Source: Candidatus Adlerbacteria bacterium RIFCSPHIGHO2_12_FULL_53_18 (GTDB lineage Bacteria > Patescibacteriota > Minisyncoccia > Phycocordibacterales > SBAW01). From it: 43,214 nucleotides of DNA. The first letter of the stretch is position 1. Each line of letters opens with the position of its first letter. Shown here piece after piece: positions 14,058 through 33,263 of this stretch. The notes under the pieces were generated by a model. That model saw nothing but the letters and a program-made list of their open reading frames with translations. It was not told where the DNA came from and ran no database searches. The stretch covers positions 1 to 43,214 of the forward strand of contig MEWW01000017.1 of NCBI GenBank assembly GCA_001775475.1, in the 5' to 3' direction. A program made the position numbers and the translations under genes.

Positions 14058-14867
14058 GTGTCAGACATCCTAAGCGCTTTTGCCGTGCTTGACCCAAAGG
14101 GTGCCATTGGGGCCGCCGAGTTGCAGCTCATGGTGCAGGCGATGCTTTTTATGCTCATCGTCGCGGTGCCGGTGTTTGTCCTGCTGTTTTTCTTTGCCTG
14201 GCATTACCGAGCGGGCAACAAAAAAGCCAAGTACCTGCCGGAGTGGGAGCATGCAAAAATTGACGAGCTTATCTGGTGGGCGATACCGTTTGAAATTGTG
14301 TTGATATTAGGCGCCTTAACCTGGACAAGCACCCACGAGCTCGACCCGCCGAAACCCTTAGAAGGCGAGCCCGCACTCGTAGTGCAGGTTGTTGCACTCG
14401 ACTGGAAGTGGCTTTTTATCTACCCCGAAGAGGGGGTAGCCACAGTTAACTACCTTGCAATACCGGTTGGCCGGCCAGTGCAATTTAACATCACTTCCGA
14501 CGCGCCGATGAACGCATTTTGGATACCGCAGCTCGGCGGAATGCTCTACGCCATGACCGGTATGACCAACACGCTCCACTTAGTAGCCGACGAAGCGGGG
14601 GAGTATAAGGGCCTTTCCGCCAACTACAGCGGCGAGGGCTTCGCTCAGATGAAATTCGTCGCCGAAGCAATGCCGGCTGAGGAGTTTGAGACATGGACGA
14701 TAGTGACAAGATCCTCTTCGCGGTACTTGTCGTGGCAGGAGTACGAACACCTTGCGGAGCCGAGTGTCGAGGAAAGACCTACGTACTACGCGGGCGTTGA
14801 GAATAACCTTTACAATACAATCGTGATGCAGTTTATGGAAAGCGGCACGCACGCCGAGGCGCATTAA
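14058..14867 (+). CDS. cyoA: Quinol oxidase (bo3-type) subunit II
   Basis: DWKWLFIYPEEGVATVN...FNITSDAPMNAFWIPQLGGMLYAMTGMTNTLHLVADEAGEYKGLSANYSGEGFAQMKF; CuA ligands absent, as in CyoA. Confidence 0.95.
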   Translation: MSDILSAFAVLDPKGAIGAAELQLMVQAMLFMLIVAVPVFVLLFFFAWHYRAGNKKAKYLPEWEHAKIDELIWWAIPFEIVLILGALTWTSTHELDPPKPLEGEPALVVQVVALDWKWLFIYPEEGVATVNYLAIPVGRPVQFNITSDAPMNAFWIPQLGGMLYAMTGMTNTLHLVADEAGEYKGLSANYSGEGFAQMKFVAEAMPAEEFETWTIVTRSSSRYLSWQEYEHLAEPSVEERPTYYAGVENNLYNTIVMQFMESGTHAEAH

Positions 14868-14889
14868 TTATTTGTGGTATAGTGCTTAT

Positions 14890-15072
14890 ATGGCTGTTAT
14901 CACTATTCCAAAAAAGCTGGCAAACAAGGGCGATTTGGTGGTAATCCCTAAAAAGGAACTAGAAGCCCTTATTGAACGCGCTGGAGAAGAAGTAACCGAA
15001 CGGGATATCCTACGTTGGTCAAAAGAAGCAAAACGTCTTCGTCGCGCCGGTAAACTTCGAAAACTCTCTTAG
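14890..15072 (+). CDS. Antitoxin-like small protein (type II TA)
   Basis: MAVITIPKKLANKGDLVVIPKKELEALIERAGEEVTERDILRWSKEAKRLRRAGKLRKLS: AbrB/RelB-like N-terminus, basic C-terminus, immediately upstream of the toxin. Confidence 0.8.
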   Translation: MAVITIPKKLANKGDLVVIPKKELEALIERAGEEVTERDILRWSKEAKRLRRAGKLRKLS

Positions 15073-15091
15073 TCGCCCACTCCAGTTGGCT

Positions 15092-15355
15092 ATGACGATT
15101 TATCTTTTTGGCCGCTATCGTCGTAGCTATAAACGCCTTGATCCGCAGTTACAACGTCTAGCAACGGAGCGAATAGTTCTCTTTGAGCGCAACCCGTTTG
15201 ATCCACGTCTCGACACGCACAGCCTCCACGGTAAACTTAAGAAGCAGTGGAGCTTTTCCGTAGACAAACGATACCGGATACTCTTTGAGTTTCTCGACAA
15301 GAACAAAGAGGAGGTCATCTTTTTAGATGTAGGTTCTCACTCGATATACCGATAA
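15092..15355 (+). CDS. RelE/ParE-family toxin
   Basis: MTIYLFGRYRRSYKRLDPQLQRLATERIVLFERNPFDPRLDTHSLHGKLKKQWSFSVDKRYRILFEFLDKNKEEVIFLDVGSHSIYR. Confidence 0.88.
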   Translation: MTIYLFGRYRRSYKRLDPQLQRLATERIVLFERNPFDPRLDTHSLHGKLKKQWSFSVDKRYRILFEFLDKNKEEVIFLDVGSHSIYR

Positions 15356-15358
15356 CCT

Positions 15359-17254
15359 ATGTTTGGCAGACTTACACTAGACGCATTCGTGCATGCACCG
15401 GTTGAGACCGGCGCTCAGCTTATGGTGGTGGGCGGTGCTGTGGCCGTGGTGCTCTTGCTGACCTACTTTAAAAAGTGGGGATGGCTCTACCACGAGTGGT
15501 TGACCTCCCTCGATGCCAAAAAAATCGGCATCATGTACCTCGTCTTAACTGCTGTGATGTTGGCGCGCGGCGCCGCAGACGCCTTTATGATGCGCGCCCA
15601 GCAGGTAGTGGCGGTGGGGGAAGGGGTAGGATATCTACCGCCGGATCACTACGCACAAATTTTCAGCGCGCACGGCGTCATTATGATTTTCTTCGTCGCG
15701 ATGCCGTTTATGTTCGCGCTCCTCAACCTCATCGTACCCTTGCAAATCGGCGCCAGAGACGTTGCCTATCCTTTTTTAAACTCCGTTTCGTTCTGGCTCA
15801 CGGCCGTGGGTGCCATACTCATCAACCTCTCGCTCGTGGCGGGGGAGTTTGCTGCAACCGGCTGGCTGGCTTACCCGCCCTTGTCAGGCTTAGAGTACAG
15901 CCCGGGGGTTGGGGTCGACTACTGGATATGGGCCCTGCAGATTTCAGGCATAGGTACGCTTATCTCCGGCATCAACTTCTTTGTCACCATACTTAAAATG
16001 CGCGCGCCGGGGATGACTCTGATGCGCATGCCAATCTTCTGCTGGACGGCTCTCGGCTCGATGTCGCTCGTCATCTTTGCCTTCCCGATTTTGACGGTGA
16101 CCTTGAGTCTTCTCGCTCTCGACCGGATATTTGGCATGCACTTTTTCACCACCGACATGGGCGGCAACGCCATGCTCTACGTCAACTTAATCTGGGCCTG
16201 GGGACACCCCGAGGTTTACATTCTTATACTGCCCGCGTTCGGGATTTTCTCGGAAGTGGTGGCCACTTTTTCACAGAAAAGATTGTTCGGCTACACCTCA
16301 ATGGTCGTGGCGACCATGGCAATCGTCGTGTTGTCGTTTATCGTCTGGGTACACCACTTTTTTACCATGGGTGCGGGTTCAGACGTCAACGCATTTTTCG
16401 GCATTATGACGATGACAATAGCCATTCCGACCGGCGTCAAAGTGTTTAACTGGCTCTTTACCATGTTCCGCGGCCGGATTATCTTTGCGACGCCCATGCT
16501 GTGGTTTATGGGCTTCTTAACCACGTTTACCTTGGGCGGGATGACAGGGGTCTTAATGGCCATACCGGGCGCCGACTTCCAGCTCCACAATTCGCTGTTT
16601 TTGGTCGCACACTTCCACAACATGATTATAGGCGGCGTACTCTTCGGCTTTTTTGCGGGGCTGACCTACTGGTGGCCAAAAATATTCGGCTTCACATTAA
16701 GCGAGCGGCTCGGCCGGTACGCCTTTTGGAGCTGGATTATCGGATTTCTCCTTGCGTTTATCCCGCTCTACTTACTCGGTCTGATGGGCATGACCCGGCG
16801 GCTCAACCAGGTAGACGAGATATTCCAGCCGCTCCTTATAGTCGCGGCAGTGGGGGCGTGTGTTATTGCGCTCGGGATTTTCTTTCAAGTTCTGCAAATT
16901 GTTCACGGCATATGGAACCGGAAGAAAAACATCGCGGGCAGTGACCCGTGGAACGGGCGCACGCTCGAGTGGGCCACTTCCTCGCCGCCGCCAGAGTATA
17001 ACTTTGCAACAATCCCGGCTGTCGAAGGCCGTGATGCGTGGTGGCTTATGAAGCGGCAAGGTAAAAAATTAGAGGGGCGCGAGGAAAAGATTCATATACC
17101 GGCAAATACCCCGTTTGGACTTTTTATTGCGGGATGCACTTTGTTGCTAGGGTTCGGGATCATCTGGCACATGTGGTGGCTGGCCGTCCTTGGTGTTGTG
17201 GGGTGTATTGTTTTGCTTATGGTTCGATCTTTTATGTATGAAGGAGAACACTAG
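15359..17254 (+). CDS. cyoB: Quinol oxidase (bo3-type) subunit I
   Basis: [52 protein letters not shown]: haem and CuB ligands present. Confidence 0.97.
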
Positions 17255-17255
17255 C

Positions 17256-17828
17256 ATGCCTGCGCATGCAGGCGACAAAGTACTATTCGGCTTTTGGGTC
17301 TACCTCATGAGCGACGTGGTCTTGTTTGCGTCGCTTTTTGCGACCCACGCAGTCTTGCAAGGCCAGACTTTCGGAGCCCCAAGCATCGCCGAGCTCGCGA
17401 ACCTGCCCTTTGTGTTGTGGGAGACTCTTATCCTTCTCACATCAAGCTTTACCGTGGGTTTGACAGTGTATTTCGCTGCAAAAAAGAGAAAAGTGCAGAC
17501 TTTTTTGGCCTTAGCAGCTACATTAGCGCTCGGTGCCGCGTTTCTCTCGATGGAGCTGTATGAGTTTGCTCACTTAGTCAAAGAAGGCCACGGCCCGTGG
17601 GCAAACGCTTCATACTCGGCCTTCTTTACTCTTGTCGGCACGCACGGCCTGCACGTGTTTTTGGGTACGGTGTGGGGCATGTTGCTTGTGGTTCAGCTGA
17701 TGGTGTGGGAAGCACATGCAACAGTAGCGCGGCGGCTTATGTGCTTTAGCCTGTTTTGGCACTTCCTCGACGTGATTTGGATTTTTATCTTTACCTTCGT
17801 GTACCTGTTCGGCGCACTACAAGTATGA
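17256..17828 (+). CDS. cyoC: Quinol oxidase subunit III
   Basis: FGFWVYLMSDVVLFASLFATHAVL..., GTHGLHVFLGTVWG, FWHFLDVIWIFIFTFVYLFG; AAGGAG before ATG 17256. Confidence 0.94.
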   Translation: MPAHAGDKVLFGFWVYLMSDVVLFASLFATHAVLQGQTFGAPSIAELANLPFVLWETLILLTSSFTVGLTVYFAAKKRKVQTFLALAATLALGAAFLSMELYEFAHLVKEGHGPWANASYSAFFTLVGTHGLHVFLGTVWGMLLVVQLMVWEAHATVARRLMCFSLFWHFLDVIWIFIFTFVYLFGALQV

Positions 17829-17829
17829 G

Positions 17830-17907
17830 TCCCGTTAGAGACCCGCATATACACTATGTCTGATAAAATTTCACCACAAAGAAAAAGTTCCTTAGTCTCT
17901 AACGGGA
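17830..17907 (+). promoter_or_regulatory. Inverted repeat spanning the cyoD translation start
   Basis: TCCCGTTAGAGAC (17830-17842) and perfect complement GTCTCTAACGGGA (17895-17907), ending at the second in-frame ATG. Confidence 0.65.
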
Positions 17908-18269
17908 TGAGTACGTTACAGAACTATAGTATCGGCTTCCTGCTCTCAATCGCGTTTACGCTCGCGGCTTTTTGGCTCGTGTGGCAGCACGTACAGGGCG
18001 CGGCGCTGTTCTCTGCAGAAAAGCTTGTCGTGCTGTTGGTGGGGCTCGCCGTAGCTCAGCTCTACGTCCAGCTTATCTGCTTTTTGCATCTGGGGGCCGA
18101 GAAGCAGAGGCCGCGATGGAGCCTCATCATTTTTGCCTTTGCCGCGGTTGTCGTTGTGGTGCTCGTGGGCGGCACTATCTGGATTATGTACCACCTAGAC
18201 CGGGGTCATACTGATCTTTCGGAAATTTATCCAAGCGGCACGGTTTCGCCCCAAACCCAGGATGATTAG
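17856..18269 (+). CDS. cyoD: Quinol oxidase subunit IV
   Basis: YSIGFLLSIAFTLAAFWLVW...QLYVQLICFLHLG...; follows cyoC. Internal ATG 17907 is an alternative start. Confidence 0.85.
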   Translation: MSDKISPQRKSSLVSNGMSTLQNYSIGFLLSIAFTLAAFWLVWQHVQGAALFSAEKLVVLLVGLAVAQLYVQLICFLHLGAEKQRPRWSLIIFAFAAVVVVVLVGGTIWIMYHLDRGHTDLSEIYPSGTVSPQTQDD

Positions 18270-18957
18270 TTCCTACTACGAGCTGGTGAAGCCGCGCATG
18301 GTGCTGATGAATGTCTTGGTAGCTGTGGCGGTGTTTATCTTTGCCTCACCCGAGGTTATTAGCTGGGAGGCACTGAGCGTTATGGCTTCCGGCCTTGCTT
18401 TTGTGGTGGCGAGCGCATGCGTCTTCAACAACTACGCGGACCGGCACCTCGACGCCAAGATGGAGCGCACCAAGAACCGCGGCCTGGTGACCGGCGCAGT
18501 GACGCCCGCGCATGCGCTTGTCTTTGGCGGAGCGCTGCTGGTGTGCGGCGTCTTGCTACTGTATACGGTGCACCCCTTGGCTCTTGGGGTGGCACTCTTC
18601 GGGTTTGCGGTCTATGTGTTTGTCTACACGCCGCTTAAACCAAAAACCGGCTACGCGCTCTATGTGGGTGCTGTCGCGGGCGCCGCACCGCCCCTGGTAG
18701 GCTACGCGGCCGCGGCGCACACACTAGACTATATGGCACTGGCGCTCTTTGCTCTTTTGTTTTTGTGGCAGGTGCCGCACTTTTTGGCCATAGCACGTTA
18801 CCGCTATGATGAGTACTCTGCGGGCGGCGTACCGCTCTTGGTAGAGCGGCCAAAAAGCGCAGAGGAGCGCCAGCGTGCGCGAACAATCTTTTACCTGTCG
18901 CTCCTCGTGCTGCTTTTGTTCTGCCTTATCCTGATAGTCCAGAGGTGGATCAAGTAG
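18262..18957 (+). CDS. cyoE: Protoheme IX farnesyltransferase (haem O synthase), C-terminally short
   Basis: VKPRMVLMNVLVAV, NNYADRHLDAKMERTKNRGLVTG, VYTPLKPKTGYALYVGAVAGAAPPLVGY, DYMALALFALLFLWQVPHFLAIARYR; 231 aa. Confidence 0.93.
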   Translation: MISSYYELVKPRMVLMNVLVAVAVFIFASPEVISWEALSVMASGLAFVVASACVFNNYADRHLDAKMERTKNRGLVTGAVTPAHALVFGGALLVCGVLLLYTVHPLALGVALFGFAVYVFVYTPLKPKTGYALYVGAVAGAAPPLVGYAAAAHTLDYMALALFALLFLWQVPHFLAIARYRYDEYSAGGVPLLVERPKSAEERQRARTIFYLSLLVLLLFCLILIVQRWIK

Positions 18958-26613: not shown

Positions 26614-27783
26614 TCAGTGACCTTTATCCCACGAGTGGAGCTTGTCCCGAAGGATCCACTCCTTCCAGATGGAATACAGGTATACGCCGAAGCTTACATA
26701 CTGCGTCACTAGAGTGGCGGGCAAGCTTGCCAGGGCCGTCGAGAACATGCCAAGCCGATATGCCCGCCACAGCGCCGGCACTCCCATGGTGATCATCTGG
26801 AGTGCCATCATCCATCCAATCGCCGAGACAACCCCGTAGCCTGCCCACAAGAGCATCACAGGCAGCATCATGGGGCCGATCAGAAACCACACGACATACA
26901 CGTAGATGAGCAGCTGGAGACGCCAGCTGCCGAACTTGTAGAACTTACGCACGGCGATGTTCTGCAGGAATCCGCGATACCACCGCGAAAGCTGCTTCAC
27001 ATAGATGCCGAAGGTCGGTGGGTCTACCGGGTAGCACTTGGCTTCAGGGGCAAAATACACGTGATACCCCTTGCCGGTTGCTTCCCAGGTTAAGTCCAGG
27101 TCCTCCGCCATTGTCCGTTCGTTGAAGTGGCCGAACTCCTCGAGCGTTTCCTTGGTACGGAAAACGCTGAAGCAGCCGGAGGCGACAAGCACCATCCGGT
27201 TGTGGTTCTGCGCCGGCTTGATAATCGTGAGGCCGTAGAGATATTCGATAAACCGGCCGCGTTCCCACAGTGTTTGTATCTTCTGCGGGACAACAAAGCC
27301 CGAGACAATGAGCGTTTTCGGATCGTTGAAGTAGCGGATGGTCTTCTCGACTGCATCGGGCGCCACAATCGTGTCTGCATCCACCGTGACGAACAAGTCC
27401 GTCTTGACGAATGCTAGAGCAAGATTTTGCGCCTGCGCCTTGGTGCCGCGGTTCTTCGGCGTGCGATACACCGCGGCGCCGAGCGACCGGGCGATGTCGC
27501 CCGTGCGGTCGGTAGAGCAGTCGTCGACGACGATGATTTCGTCGAGACGGTAGGTCTGCGCCTGGAGGCTTCTGATCGTTGAAGCGATCGAAACTTCTTC
27601 GTTGTAGGCCGGGATTATTGCTGTAATAGACAATCGCCCGCTACTCGGGCGATTGAAGGCCACTTCTTTCGGTGATAGCCCGAGGAACCAGCGCCCCCCG
27701 TCTATCAGGTGTTCTCTCAGCGCCATCTCTTTGGCCTTTCTTGCGGTTGGATTGACAAAAAGGAGAATAATTACAATGTCCAA
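26614..27783 (-). CDS. Family 2 processive glycosyltransferase (PgaC/IcaA/NodC-like)
   Basis: ITAIIPAYNEEVSIASTIRSLQAQTYRLDEIIVVDDCSTDRTGD, VDADT, EDLDLTW, QLSRWYRG, C-terminal TM helices. ATG 27726 is an alternative start. Confidence 0.93.
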   Translation of the reverse strand: MDIVIILLFVNPTARKAKEMALREHLIDGGRWFLGLSPKEVAFNRPSSGRLSITAIIPAYNEEVSIASTIRSLQAQTYRLDEIIVVDDCSTDRTGDIARSLGAAVYRTPKNRGTKAQAQNLALAFVKTDLFVTVDADTIVAPDAVEKTIRYFNDPKTLIVSGFVVPQKIQTLWERGRFIEYLYGLTIIKPAQNHNRMVLVASGCFSVFRTKETLEEFGHFNERTMAEDLDLTWEATGKGYHVYFAPEAKCYPVDPPTFGIYVKQLSRWYRGFLQNIAVRKFYKFGSWRLQLLIYVYVVWFLIGPMMLPVMLLWAGYGVVSAIGWMMALQMITMGVPALWRAYRLGMFSTALASLPATLVTQYVSFGVYLYSIWKEWILRDKLHSWDKGH

Positions 27784-27845
27784 GTCTCTCGCAATTTTAA
27801 CCTATAAAACATGTTTTGTAAATGAAGCTGATTTTGCCTATTTTA

Positions 27846-27881
27846 ATATTGACGCTCTTCATGAAGAAATCCCGAATATTT
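27846..27881. repeat. 36-bp direct repeat, copy 2
   Basis: ATATTGACGCTCTTCATGAAGAAATCCCGAATATTT; 35/36 identical to 25327-25362; contains palindrome CTTCATGAAG. Confidence 0.85.
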
Positions 27882-27945
27882 TGTGCACATTTTGTCCACG
27901 CGTTACCCACGGGTTGTACACAGCTTACCAACAGGTTTACCCACA
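27881..27945 (+). promoter_or_regulatory. Array of six DnaA-box-like 9-mers, 11-nt phased (candidate replication origin or DnaA-binding control region)
   Basis: TTGTGCACA (27881), TTGTCCACG (27892), TTACCCACG (27903), TTGTACACA (27914), TTACCAACA (27925), TTACCCACA (27937); start-to-start spacing 11,11,11,11,12. Confidence 0.65.
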
Positions 27946-28107
27946 AAAGGTGCTAAAGTGGAAATAAGGAAACCAGCGCGTGTGCTAGCGTTCACAGACG
28001 TGTTTTGTATTTCGAACGAAATATAAGGCGCGGGTTCTGCTCGTTCGTACATATTACTCATGGTGCAACCGAGACTCTTTAATGCATCGCGCGCGGGACT
28101 CTCAACG

Positions 28108-28160
28108 AGAGCTGCTTTTGCTTCTTGCCTAAAAAGCGAGTAACAAGAGCAGCTCTTTTT
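28108..28160 (+). terminator. Attenuator/terminator-like hairpin in the leader of the TasA-like gene
   Basis: AGAGCTGCTTTTG...CAAGAGCAGCTCT followed by TTTTGTTTG, about 150 nt upstream of ATG 28310. Confidence 0.55.
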
Positions 28161-28309: not shown

Positions 28310-30016
28310 ATGAAACGACTTTTAGTTAGCGCAGGTACGCTGATCTTCATCGGCGCAGTTGCAATCAGCGCAACAGGCGCATTCTTTAGCGACACTGAAA
28401 CGTCGACAGGGAACACGTTTGCAGCAGGAGAGCTCGATCTCACGATTGACAACACCAGCTACGGGTTTGATTGGAACGATCCGTTAGCTACAAACCCGAC
28501 AGGTGTATGGGGACTTAACGCAGCCAACTCATGGCAACTCGCAGACCTCACGAACCAGCTATTCTTTAGCTTCGATGACCTTAAACCGGGAGATTACGGT
28601 GAGGACACCATCTCGCTCCATGTGCAAAACAACGCATGGGCATGTATGGCTCTTGATCTCACTGGAACACCAGAAAATGGTGTCAACGAGCCGGAAGCCG
28701 ACTTCCCAGACCTTACTGTCGGTGCTGACGAGGGTGAGCTCCAGAATTACCTCTCGTTCCTCTTCTGGAACGACGACGGCGACAATGTTCTTGAGACTGG
28801 AGAGACGGTAATTCCGGAATTAAGTGGCCTTCCGGGCTCTGCCTTTACTGGCAACTGGCTCGCGATTGCAGACCAAGGCGACACGCCACTTCAAGCTGGC
28901 ACGACGACGTGGATTGGCAAGGGTTGGTGCTTTGGCACGATGACCCCAAATCCAGTTGTGCAAGACAATGCATCCTCAAGTCCTCCTGTGGCGCCGGATC
29001 GCATCGGCTTTACCTGCAACGGTGCAGGCGACCACAACATCGCACAGACCGACGGTATCGTTGTAGACGTCCACTTCTACGCAGAGCAGTCAAGAAATAA
29101 TCCAAACTTCTTGTGCTCACAACTCCCTCCGCCTGATGGTCGCCAAGTCGTTGGTGCAGCAGCTGCAACATATGACGATCCTGCAATCTGTAATGTAACA
29201 GTTGACCTCGGCGAATCGCTCCAAGCTGCTATTGATGTGGCTGCTCCGGGAGACACAATTTGTGTTGATCCGACATATACAGGTGTGGGTGACGTTGCAA
29301 GTGTGATTGAAGTTAATGAACTTAATCTAACCATTGCAGGTCTTGGCGCAGCGGGCGCCGCAACGGTCAGCAAGGGTCTTCACATTGACGCAAATGGTGT
29401 AACGATCAAAGGCTTGACACTCAACGCGCACCCTCTCATCGAGGCTAGCGAACAAGCGGCGATCTACATTAATTCTGCGATCACAGGTACTACTATCACT
29501 CATAACCTGATTGATGGTCCTCCAGGCGCTATCGCGGCCAATGCTAAGGGCATCATCACGGAGATCGGGAACGATGGAACAGCAGGTGCTTCTGGCATCC
29601 TGGTTGCCCACAACCTGATTCGTGGCTGGAATCAGGGCATCTTCTTCAACACAGCAAACGCTGAAGTTAGATTCAACGACATCTATGCAAACACAGTGGG
29701 TGTTGCAAATGATGGCCCGCACAACACAACAATTCACCACAACGACTTCGACGGTAACACTGCCGAGGCCGTTGGTGTAGCTCCTTCCGCCAATAACGGA
29801 ACAGCTAACAATGGTGACTTGGATGTAAATACAAACAACTTCACTCCGGCGGGAGCAGGGAATAATGTAAATCATTATCTTGCTTCAGTTGTAGGAGGTG
29901 CAGATGTAAATGCTACGAATAACTTCTGGGATAGTGAAGTCGAAGCAGATAGGACAAATGTTCCTGCTGAGGTAGATACTTCATCTCCTGCAGCAGTAGC
30001 GTTCCCTGAAAACTAG
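28310..30016 (+). CDS. SipW-dependent (TasA/camelysin-like) surface protein with C-terminal right-handed beta-helix
   Basis: MKRLLVSAGTLIFIGAVAISATGAFFSDTETSTGNTFAAGELDLTIDN...; DLKPGDYGEDTISLHV; C-terminal repeats typical of parallel beta-helix proteins. Confidence 0.88.
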   Translation: MKRLLVSAGTLIFIGAVAISATGAFFSDTETSTGNTFAAGELDLTIDNTSYGFDWNDPLATNPTGVWGLNAANSWQLADLTNQLFFSFDDLKPGDYGEDTISLHVQNNAWACMALDLTGTPENGVNEPEADFPDLTVGADEGELQNYLSFLFWNDDGDNVLETGETVIPELSGLPGSAFTGNWLAIADQGDTPLQAGTTTWIGKGWCFGTMTPNPVVQDNASSSPPVAPDRIGFTCNGAGDHNIAQTDGIVVDVHFYAEQSRNNPNFLCSQLPPPDGRQVVGAAAATYDDPAICNVTVDLGESLQAAIDVAAPGDTICVDPTYTGVGDVASVIEVNELNLTIAGLGAAGAATVSKGLHIDANGVTIKGLTLNAHPLIEASEQAAIYINSAITGTTITHNLIDGPPGAIAANAKGIITEIGNDGTAGASGILVAHNLIRGWNQGIFFNTANAEVRFNDIYANTVGVANDGPHNTTIHHNDFDGNTAEAVGVAPSANNGTANNGDLDVNTNNFTPAGAGNNVNHYLASVVGGADVNATNNFWDSEVEADRTNVPAEVDTSSPAAVAFPEN

Positions 30017-30118: not shown

Positions 30119-31618
30119 ATGAAAAGGATACTCTTGGGCACAGTTACGATAGTAGGGGCACTTGCAGCAATGTATATCGGGGTGACGGGCGCGTTTTTTA
30201 GCGACACAGAGACAAGTACCGGCAACACCTTTGCCGCCGGCGCGATTGACCTCTTGGTTGATAACGAGTCGTACTACAACGGCAATGTATGCGCCGAGAC
30301 GGCTCCTGACAGCGGCATTTGGCAATGGCAAGGCAATGCATTGTTTCCTGTCCCCGGCACCGAGTGCGACACGAGCTGGGAACTCGACAACTTAACCGGA
30401 CACCTCTTCTTTAACTTTACCGACATCAAGCCTGATGATGAAGGCGAAGACACTATCTCCCTGCACGTAAACACCAACGACGCTTATATGTGTATGAACA
30501 TTGCTCTCACAGAGAATGATGACAATAACACAACCGAGCCCGAGGGCTTGGTAGACCCAACCGCCAACCCCGACACCGAATGGGATGGCGAGCTCGCGCA
30601 GACTCTACAAATGGTCTGGTGGGCTGACGACAGCGACAATGTGCTGGAGCACGGCGAGACAATACTTACGGGCGACGGAACCGTTGTCGGCGGTGTTGAA
30701 ACCTTGTTTAACCTCGCCTCAACCAGCGGGCCGTTTGTGGTGGCGCTGGCAGACTCTGAAAACAATGTATGGGACCCACAGAATCCGGGTCCAGTACCGG
30801 GTGAAGAAACTCGCTACATCGGCAAGGCATGGTGCTTTGGCACACTGACTATCAGCCCTGTTCCATTTGACACTGGAGTGAGTCCTGCAGTTGACCCAGG
30901 GGTGTTATGCGACGGAACATTGCTTGGCAACGAAACCCAGACCGACAGCGCTCTGCTCGACGTGACGTTTGACGCAGTGCAGGCGCGCAACAATCCGGAT
31001 TTTGTGTGTCTCGAAGATGAGTGCACCTTCAACGAGCAGGTAGACCTGCTTGTTGCAACCGCTAAGTTTGAGAATCCGGAGGTAACTACCGCTCAAAACT
31101 GGGACGTCTTCGGCTCGCCGGTAGACGGCTGGAACGTTGATTGGCGCGGCGATATACCAGCAACCTTTGGCCCGCAAAATCGTCCGGCAGTCGCCAACCT
31201 TGAGTACCACGAAGGTGTCCTTGGTGCGGCGTTTGAGGGCGACCAGTATGCTGAGCTCGACTCCGACTGGGGAGGCCCTTCAGACGCGGGCACTGGTGAA
31301 CCGGCTTCTGTAAGTATCTATCGCAACTTTGTAACGGTGCCGGGTGCGCAGTACTTGCTCAAGTATCACTTCTCGCCACGTCCTAACACTCCAGCAGCAG
31401 ATAACAATCTTGAAGCAAAAGTAGAAGGTGTTGCACTTAACACCACGGGCCCAACTGCGGGCGGTGGAGCAATTGCATGGAGTGAAATTGTGGTCCCATT
31501 TATCGCTGGTGATGCAAGCACTGAAATCCGCTTTACCGACCTTGGTACCGCAAACTCGCTCGGTACATTCCTCGACAATGTTCGCTTGTACCAGATCAGC
31601 TGTCCGGTGGTGCAATAG
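30119..31618 (+). CDS. SipW-dependent TasA-like protein with C-terminal DUF642-like carbohydrate-binding domain
   Basis: GAFFSDTETSTGNTFAAGAIDLLVDN, DIKPDDEGEDTISLHV; C-terminus ENPEVTTAQNWDVFGSPVDGWNVDW...FLDNVRLYQ. Confidence 0.87.
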   Translation: MKRILLGTVTIVGALAAMYIGVTGAFFSDTETSTGNTFAAGAIDLLVDNESYYNGNVCAETAPDSGIWQWQGNALFPVPGTECDTSWELDNLTGHLFFNFTDIKPDDEGEDTISLHVNTNDAYMCMNIALTENDDNNTTEPEGLVDPTANPDTEWDGELAQTLQMVWWADDSDNVLEHGETILTGDGTVVGGVETLFNLASTSGPFVVALADSENNVWDPQNPGPVPGEETRYIGKAWCFGTLTISPVPFDTGVSPAVDPGVLCDGTLLGNETQTDSALLDVTFDAVQARNNPDFVCLEDECTFNEQVDLLVATAKFENPEVTTAQNWDVFGSPVDGWNVDWRGDIPATFGPQNRPAVANLEYHEGVLGAAFEGDQYAELDSDWGGPSDAGTGEPASVSIYRNFVTVPGAQYLLKYHFSPRPNTPAADNNLEAKVEGVALNTTGPTAGGGAIAWSEIVVPFIAGDASTEIRFTDLGTANSLGTFLDNVRLYQISCPVVQ

Positions 31619-31650: not shown

Positions 31651-32667
31651 ATGAGAGCCGCAACCCACAAATCTTTGGTGGCGAGAGCACTCCTTGTAGC
31701 AGGGGTACTCTCGCTTGCATCCGGATTGTTTGTAGTGCGTGCGCAGGAGCCAGAGAGCACCTATGCCCGCTCGTACAGCTATCACAGTTTTGACCTTACC
31801 GTAGACAGTGAGGCCTCTTACAACGGGGTGCCGTGGCCTGATGGCACGTGGGACTTAAAAGACCTAAAGCCGTGGAAGGACAAGTTTTGGAACTTTGGCG
31901 ACATCAAGCCGGGCGACAAGGGGGAGAACACGATTAGCCTCCATGTAAACAAAGACGCCTGGGTGTGTCTCGAGTTCTTAAACTTAAAGGAGCAGGAGAA
32001 CGGCGAAAACGAACCGGAGTCTTTAGACGACAACAGTGCGCCCAGCGAAGGCGAGCTAGCCGACCAGATGGAGTTTTTTGCCTGGCACGACGACGGCGAC
32101 AACATTTTTCAAGTAGGGGAGATACCGATTTTTGGCACGACGACCCAGGCCGCCACGCAAGTGTTAAACAACAAGGTGTACCCTATAGCCGACTACACAC
32201 ATGGCCCGGCAATCCCCAAAAACCAGACCAAGTACTTCGGTGTGTATTGGTGCGCGGGCAACCTCACGGTTGACGTTGCAACGGCTTTTCTAGCCTGCGA
32301 CGGCTCTGCCATGAACAACGACTCGCAGACCGACAGCATGTCGGTGGATGTGCAGCTGGTTGCCGTGCCCAAAAATGACAAGCCGAAGTTTACCTGCGAC
32401 AAAATCGTAGTGCCGCCGCCGGGCGAGCAGTGCGAGGTGGGCAAGGTGGAAATAAAGGTGGAGAACAACGCCGTAATCATCAACAACACATCCTCAAACA
32501 GCAACACTGGAGACAACTCGGCGGGCCCGGGCGGCACGGTAACTACCGGCAATGCGAGTTCAAATTCAAATACGATCAACGTGGTTAACACGACCATAAT
32601 CCAAAACGGGGGCACCAGCACTTCGAGCATCATCAACATCCTGCAAAATATGATCAGACGGCGATAA
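31651..32667 (+). CDS. TasA-like paralog with Asn/Thr/Ser-rich C-terminal repeats
   Basis: YSYHSFDLTVDSEASYNG, DIKPGDKGENTISLHVNKDAWVCLEF; C-terminus SSNSNTGDNSAGPGGTVTTGNASSNSNTINVVNTTIIQNGG. Confidence 0.82.
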   Translation: MRAATHKSLVARALLVAGVLSLASGLFVVRAQEPESTYARSYSYHSFDLTVDSEASYNGVPWPDGTWDLKDLKPWKDKFWNFGDIKPGDKGENTISLHVNKDAWVCLEFLNLKEQENGENEPESLDDNSAPSEGELADQMEFFAWHDDGDNIFQVGEIPIFGTTTQAATQVLNNKVYPIADYTHGPAIPKNQTKYFGVYWCAGNLTVDVATAFLACDGSAMNNDSQTDSMSVDVQLVAVPKNDKPKFTCDKIVVPPPGEQCEVGKVEIKVENNAVIINNTSSNSNTGDNSAGPGGTVTTGNASSNSNTINVVNTTIIQNGGTSTSSIINILQNMIRRR

Positions 32668-32669
32668 GT

Positions 32670-33263
32670 ATGAAAACCCTCGGCAAAATAATCTACGGAC
32701 TTTTTGTGACAGCGCTGGTTGGCGTTGCGGCACTGCTCTTGGTCTCGCTTATGCCGATAACGGGCAACCTCGAACTCAAGATTGTAAAATCCGGCTCAAT
32801 GGAGCCCTCGATACCAACCGGCTCTATCGTGGTGGTGATGCCGCGCGCGAGCTACCAGGTGGGGGATGTGGTGACCTTCGGTAAGGACACCCCCCGCGAA
32901 ATACCGACCACGCACCGCGTTATTGCCAAGCGGGTTGAAAACGGGCAGACGGTCTTTACGACCAAGGGCGATGCCAACGAAGAGCAAGACCCGCGCGACA
33001 TCGCGCTCCGCGAGGTTATCGGCGGCGTACTCTTCCACGTGCCGTACCTGGGCTATGTGCTCGACTTTGCCCGGCAACCACTCGGCTTTGCGCTCTTAAT
33101 CGGGCTGCCAGCGACCATGATTGTCGTTGACGAGGCACTTAATATCGCTAGGGAGGTGGCGGCATTGCGCCGTCGGCGACATCAAGGTTCGACCTTGATG
33201 AATATGCCGGTGCCGCAGAAACCCCGAGTATTTTCTGAAAGAACGCGCATACCAACGCTATGA
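32670..33263 (+). CDS. sipW: Signal peptidase I, SipW/archaeal type (Ser-His)
   Basis: KIVKSGSMEPSIPTGSIVVV, TTHRVIAKR, TKGDANEEQDP; N- and C-terminal TMs. Confidence 0.92.
   Translation: MKTLGKIIYGLFVTALVGVAALLLVSLMPITGNLELKIVKSGSMEPSIPTGSIVVVMPRASYQVGDVVTFGKDTPREIPTTHRVIAKRVENGQTVFTTKGDANEEQDPRDIALREVIGGVLFHVPYLGYVLDFARQPLGFALLIGLPATMIVVDEALNIAREVAALRRRRHQGSTLMNMPVPQKPRVFSERTRIPTL

Follow-up and report, generated by a model that had tools for sequence, protein, structure and literature searches.

A phased array of DnaA boxes as a predicted regulatory site of a SipW/TasA-like operon in Candidatus Adlerbacteria

In the genome of Candidatus Adlerbacteria bacterium RIFCSPHIGHO2_12_FULL_53_18, six DnaA-box-like 9-mers stand in a row upstream of an operon that encodes secreted proteins and a SipW-type signal peptidase. 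This array probably serves the SipW/TasA-like operon as a regulatory site that is bound by DnaA, which would assemble there as a cooperative filament. The stretch of DNA analysed (43,214 nucleotides of contig MEWW01000017.1, hereafter the window) had previously been described from its letters, and either a replication origin or a phased DnaA-type regulatory array had been proposed for the site. The regulatory reading is now favoured by three lines of evidence: the conservation of the array with the operon, its agreement with the 2–3 bp gap rule of DnaA, and its identity with boxes of the genus's dnaA promoter.

The array and the operon downstream

The phased array occupies positions 27881–27945 on the plus strand and was located both by pattern search and by a scoring scan. 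Its boxes are TTGTGCACA (27881), TTGTCCACG (27892), TTACCCACG (27903), TTGTACACA (27914), TTACCAACA (27925) and TTACCCACA (27937), and they differ from the bacterial DnaA box TTATNCACA at 1, 2, 2, 1, 2 and 1 positions, respectively. All six starts and these mismatch counts agree with the preliminary description. The 11-nt register given there applies to the first four steps, each of 11 bp, but not to the last, which is 12 bp with a gap of 3 bp instead of 2. The boxes all lie on the same strand, with gaps of 2, 2, 2, 2 and 3 bp, and their starts are one helical turn apart. Three of the six carry C at position 4, a poor base for DnaA.

The surroundings are as first described. The flank 5′ of the array (27750–27880) is 69.5% AT, compared with 46% across the window; array flanks are fairly AT-rich in most relatives too, and intergenic DNA is AT-rich in general. 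Genes diverge from the array: a glycosyltransferase of family 2 is encoded to the left (minus strand, 26614–27726, ATG at 27726) and a protein with a SipW-dependent signal to the right (plus strand, ATG at 28310). The genes dnaA, dnaN and rpmH are all absent from the window. The glycosyltransferase gene was tried as a synteny anchor in relatives, which are not syntenic here, and gave no useful result.

The operon reads along the plus strand. Its first gene (28310–30016) encodes a secreted protein with a SipW-dependent signal (TIGR04088) and weak similarity to camelysin, and the second (30119–31618) another secreted protein with the same type of signal (TIGR04088), for which a single-sequence structure prediction was unusable (pLDDT 33). 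These are followed by an exported protein without a family match but with an orthologue in G017 (31651–32667), a SipW-type signal peptidase I (32670–33263; TIGR02228, 106 bits) and an exported lamin-tail-domain protein (33260–34336). The TIGR02228 and TIGR04088 matches are above their cut-offs, and the gene set fits a SipW/TasA-type secretion operon. A DUF5667 gene on the opposite strand and then ATP synthase genes lie 3′ of the operon. Elsewhere in the window, a heme-copper oxidase cluster (COX2, COX1, COX3 and a UbiA-type prenyltransferase) was observed at 14058–18957, in a genome of 540 kb.

The leader that separates the array from the first gene has an unusually stable fold (z = −4.3) and contains a strong plus-strand hairpin followed by a T run (28107–28160), a possible terminator, attenuator or short-RNA end. 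Because the hairpin is followed by a U run in the transcript, early termination may provide a further level of control. Terminator-like hairpins resembling this one were seen by eye in G006 and G011. An Rfam search of the leader and its relatives returned nothing above the gathering score, and a search for sigma-70 promoters upstream of the operon returned none above chance. In several genomes, candidate −10 elements follow the array at a distance of about 40 bp (TGCTAGCGT in the window's own, TAGAAT in G011, and one in G211 with TTGACA); these elements are weak, and most do not exceed what chance would give.

The array within its genome

Phased arrays were scored with a DnaA-box matrix, with units chained at 10–12 bp. 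Since the matrix was built from known DnaA boxes, the composition of the boxes does not by itself count as independent evidence, whereas their spacing, position and strand do. The window array, with a score of 46.2, ranks above every other phased array in the genome (540 kb, 18 contigs). The top score in 12 simulated Markov genomes of the same dinucleotide content, scanned on both strands, was 17.9, and the array is therefore not attributable to chance. It is also the sole place in the 540-kb genome where at least four 9-mers of a relaxed form cluster within 150 bp.

The scan was blind to gene content, and the second-ranked site was the intergenic region between rpmH and dnaA (score 27.0), while the dnaA–dnaN gap ranked fifth (14.8). 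These two ranks identify the array motif as the lineage's own DnaA box. The rpmH–dnaA boxes of this genome are CTATACACA, TTCTCCACA and TTGTGCACA, likewise 11 bp apart. In 60 relatives, a search for pairs of exact TTNTNCACA boxes in 11-bp register, with the pattern read backward as a control, found such pairs mostly between rpmH and dnaA, in 15 genomes (14 of the genus, including the window's own, and G048). Further pairs lie at the SipW operon of G007 and at a small number of other sites. The control matched once across all 60 genomes. From the rpmH–dnaA matches it follows that TTGTGCACA, with which the window array begins, is a box of the genus's dnaA promoter region. The encoded DnaA retains intact RPRQ and GGRDHTTV motifs, which read the DnaA box.

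As a separate observation, an extra short protein with the C-terminal, box-binding domain of DnaA is encoded in G007, G009, G012, G016, G019 and G023 and is absent from the window's genome.

Box spacing and conservation in the order

Single boxes were also called free of any spacing assumption, upstream of SipW operons and in control DNA. Upstream of the operons, box-to-box distances fell at 11–12, 21–24 and 32–35 bp with almost nothing elsewhere, and the control DNA had practically none. In E. coli, DnaA prefers double boxes whose members are 2 or 3 bp apart and binds much less well when they are farther from each other (PMC11317965), and the weak boxes of E. coli oriC are set 2 bp apart (PMC6070618). 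At the level of sequence, the match to this gap rule is the strongest argument for DnaA as the predicted binder.

A SipW-type peptidase was found in 44 of the 397 genomes of the order, and 36 operons had enough upstream sequence for a conservation count, with an array called at a score of at least 12.5. A same-orientation phased array precedes the first SipW-signal gene in 17 of these 36 operons, spread over ten families, and precedes internal paralogues in none. All five same-genus operons have it, with scores of 44 (the window's genome), 32 (G007), 29 (G006), 28 (G011) and 16–19 depending on the background model (G017). The array was thus kept in each of the four same-genus relatives where a SipW operon was found, and its loss was not seen. 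Each array of the first pass scored higher than all of the 100 sequences made by dinucleotide shuffling of the region in which it lies; that of G042 (score 10.1, 2 of 100 shuffles) is below the threshold. On the operon strand, 16 matches fell in the 25 kb of upstream DNA and 7 in the remaining 347 kb of the loci (one of the 7, in G060, in fact precedes the operon's first gene), while the other strand of those 347 kb gave 0.

At the same threshold, 19 of the 36 operons are without an array, G341 among them, its genus mates G211 and G274 having one; the link between array and operon is thus frequent rather than universal. The strict pattern TTRYNMACR in three copies retrieved, among the relatives, only the window's own site and two in G047. 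Upstream gene neighbours vary among genomes, so the operon and the array are kept as a pair while the rest of the neighbourhood is not.

Phased boxes in other settings were recorded in passing. In G195 (L142, reversed, around 3601), a three-box array with a score of 24.8 is followed, at a distance of about 540 bp, by an ECF-sigma-like gene and does not precede the TasA-like genes. In Saccharibacteria, the coding frames of homologous genes (a glycosyltransferase-like gene in L190, L196 and L197, a methyltransferase-like ORF in L201 and L206) contain dense clusters of TTTTCCACA-like boxes in 11-bp register; these clusters are far from any detected dnaA and may be a titration site or an origin. 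A triple phased DnaA box was also seen in L185 (Patescibacteria, around 4856), between an rsmH/mraW-like and a divergent dnaB-like gene.

Alternative explanations

DnaA might bind the array and yet leave the operon unaffected, the site acting on DnaA supply through titration or nucleotide exchange. datA and DARS are known DnaA-box sites outside oriC. Many boxes away from oriC would suit such a role, and clusters of DnaA boxes are known in Bacillus (PMC12371093). We regard this as unlikely, as the array is tied to the first gene of the operon and to its strand while the upstream neighbours differ, and the array of G211 is far from the origin. A fixed chromosomal place, independent of a neighbouring promoter, is what marks datA and DARS, and the array does not have one.

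The repeats might instead be bound by another regulator, for instance a response regulator of the OmpR/PhoB type. Regulators of this type use 11-bp direct repeats, with which the spacing of the array agrees, and the window's genome encodes one of them (C8:22288) together with a kinase. The family is, however, absent from 6 of the 16 array-bearing relatives, including G211 with one of the strongest arrays, which rules it out as the general binder and general explanation, and the array motif is the same as that of the boxes conserved in the dnaA promoter of the genus. A different regulator at these repeats is thus quite improbable.

A chromosomal or extra origin, at which DnaA would bind and melt the AT-rich flank, is very unlikely. 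The array is a box cluster, its 2–3 bp gaps and density recall E. coli oriC (PMC6070618), the 69.5% AT flank adjoins it, and triple boxes in the same register are, worldwide, often near dnaA or dnaN (46 of 116 stretches). GC skew in the window is, however, positive or flat to both sides of the array without a change of sign, and the array is not linked to dnaA, dnaN or rpmH. The genome's dnaA was located on contig C16, in the standard rpmH–dnaA–dnaN layout with boxes and with a dnaA–dnaN gap of 64% AT; skew on this contig is mostly negative up to the contig end, where these genes lie. In G023, of the same genus, the skew minimum is at dnaA (254–259 kb), where skew passes from negative to near zero or positive. 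The array of G211 (contig C2, 220 kb covered) is at 171.2 kb, where skew is uniformly negative; the cumulative-skew maximum, which resembles a terminus, lies at 120 kb and thus about 50 kb away. Moreover, the array keeps its strand and position relative to one operon. Because the usual place of oriC, the dnaA region, is present and fitting and the array lies elsewhere, the origin proposed in the preliminary description is not upheld; the case against it is strong but, for a draft genome, not final.

A functionless product of chance or of a decayed tandem duplication, which the varying box sequences and the 19 of 36 operons without an array might suggest, has a negligible probability given the score of 46 against at most 17.9 in simulation and the retention of core positions and register in ten families while other bases vary; it is also contradicted by the arrays that relatives have kept ahead of the first gene.

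Proposed mechanism and significance

For the array as a DnaA-binding site that regulates the operon, the following sequence of events may be envisaged. ATP-DnaA would nucleate on the better boxes TTGTGCACA and TTGTACACA, and the weak neighbouring boxes would then be filled cooperatively, giving a head-to-tail ATP-DnaA filament of one orientation with gaps of 2–3 bp. From its place ahead of the first gene, such a filament would act as a transcriptional switch for the secreted surface proteins and the signal peptidase, and the switch would follow the level of DnaA-ATP, that is, the replication state. We infer DnaA binding, filament formation and operon regulation alike from the arrangement of the boxes and genes. 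Activation is slightly favoured as the sign of control, since the presumed −35 seems to be located downstream of the array; repression, which is what known dnaA promoters show, would be nearly as likely.

These observations suggest that surface-protein production may be tied to the replication state of the cell. The broader proposition is that, in a whole order of small-genome, Patescibacteria-like bacteria, DnaA directly and cooperatively controls an operon for secreted fibre or surface proteins, so that the surface, and possibly attachment to partner cells, would be switched with replication by the initiator and not by a dedicated regulator. We consider the chances of this to be evenly balanced. 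If true, the cell surface would join the processes that DnaA regulates, in a lineage that has few regulators. Remodelling of the surface could then be connected with replication state in a testable way in hard-to-culture bacteria, and same-strand boxes at 11 or 12 bp would provide a signature by which DnaA targets could be recognized from genomes alone.

Comparison with known systems

Known transcriptional targets of DnaA include genes of replication, repair, nucleotide synthesis and the cell cycle, as well as some developmental genes (PMC8203912; PMC11317965). A literature search, largely of openly available papers, returned none linking DnaA boxes to SipW/TasA operons or to gene regulation in Patescibacteria, and within the same scope no description of such an array was found for Patescibacteria or the Candidate Phyla Radiation, whether in connection with TasA, SipW or camelysin or with oriC and DnaA boxes.

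The closest likeness is to the DnaA-regulated double-box promoters of E. coli (PMC11317965; reviewed in PMC8203912), which share with the array the same 9-mer, same-strand boxes, gaps of 2–3 bp and a place upstream of a gene; the genome's own dnaA promoter carries such boxes as well. The array differs from that regulon in having six boxes where the promoters there have two, with up to eight units in relatives, and in its predicted target, an operon of secreted surface proteins rather than replication, repair or nucleotide genes. With the low-affinity arrays of E. coli oriC (PMC6070618) it shares one-way rows of weak boxes, 2 bp apart, beside better ones, but it is not at the origin, shows no skew change and precedes an operon. 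Dense DnaA boxes outside oriC are also a feature of datA, DARS and the Bacillus box clusters, whereas the window array tracks one operon and its orientation and not a chromosomal place. Finally, the tapA-sipW-tasA operon of Bacillus likewise has a SipW peptidase beside SipW-dependent secreted proteins. That operon is controlled by SinR and AbrB, and replication acts on it indirectly; in the window, by contrast, DnaA boxes lie directly upstream of the operon.
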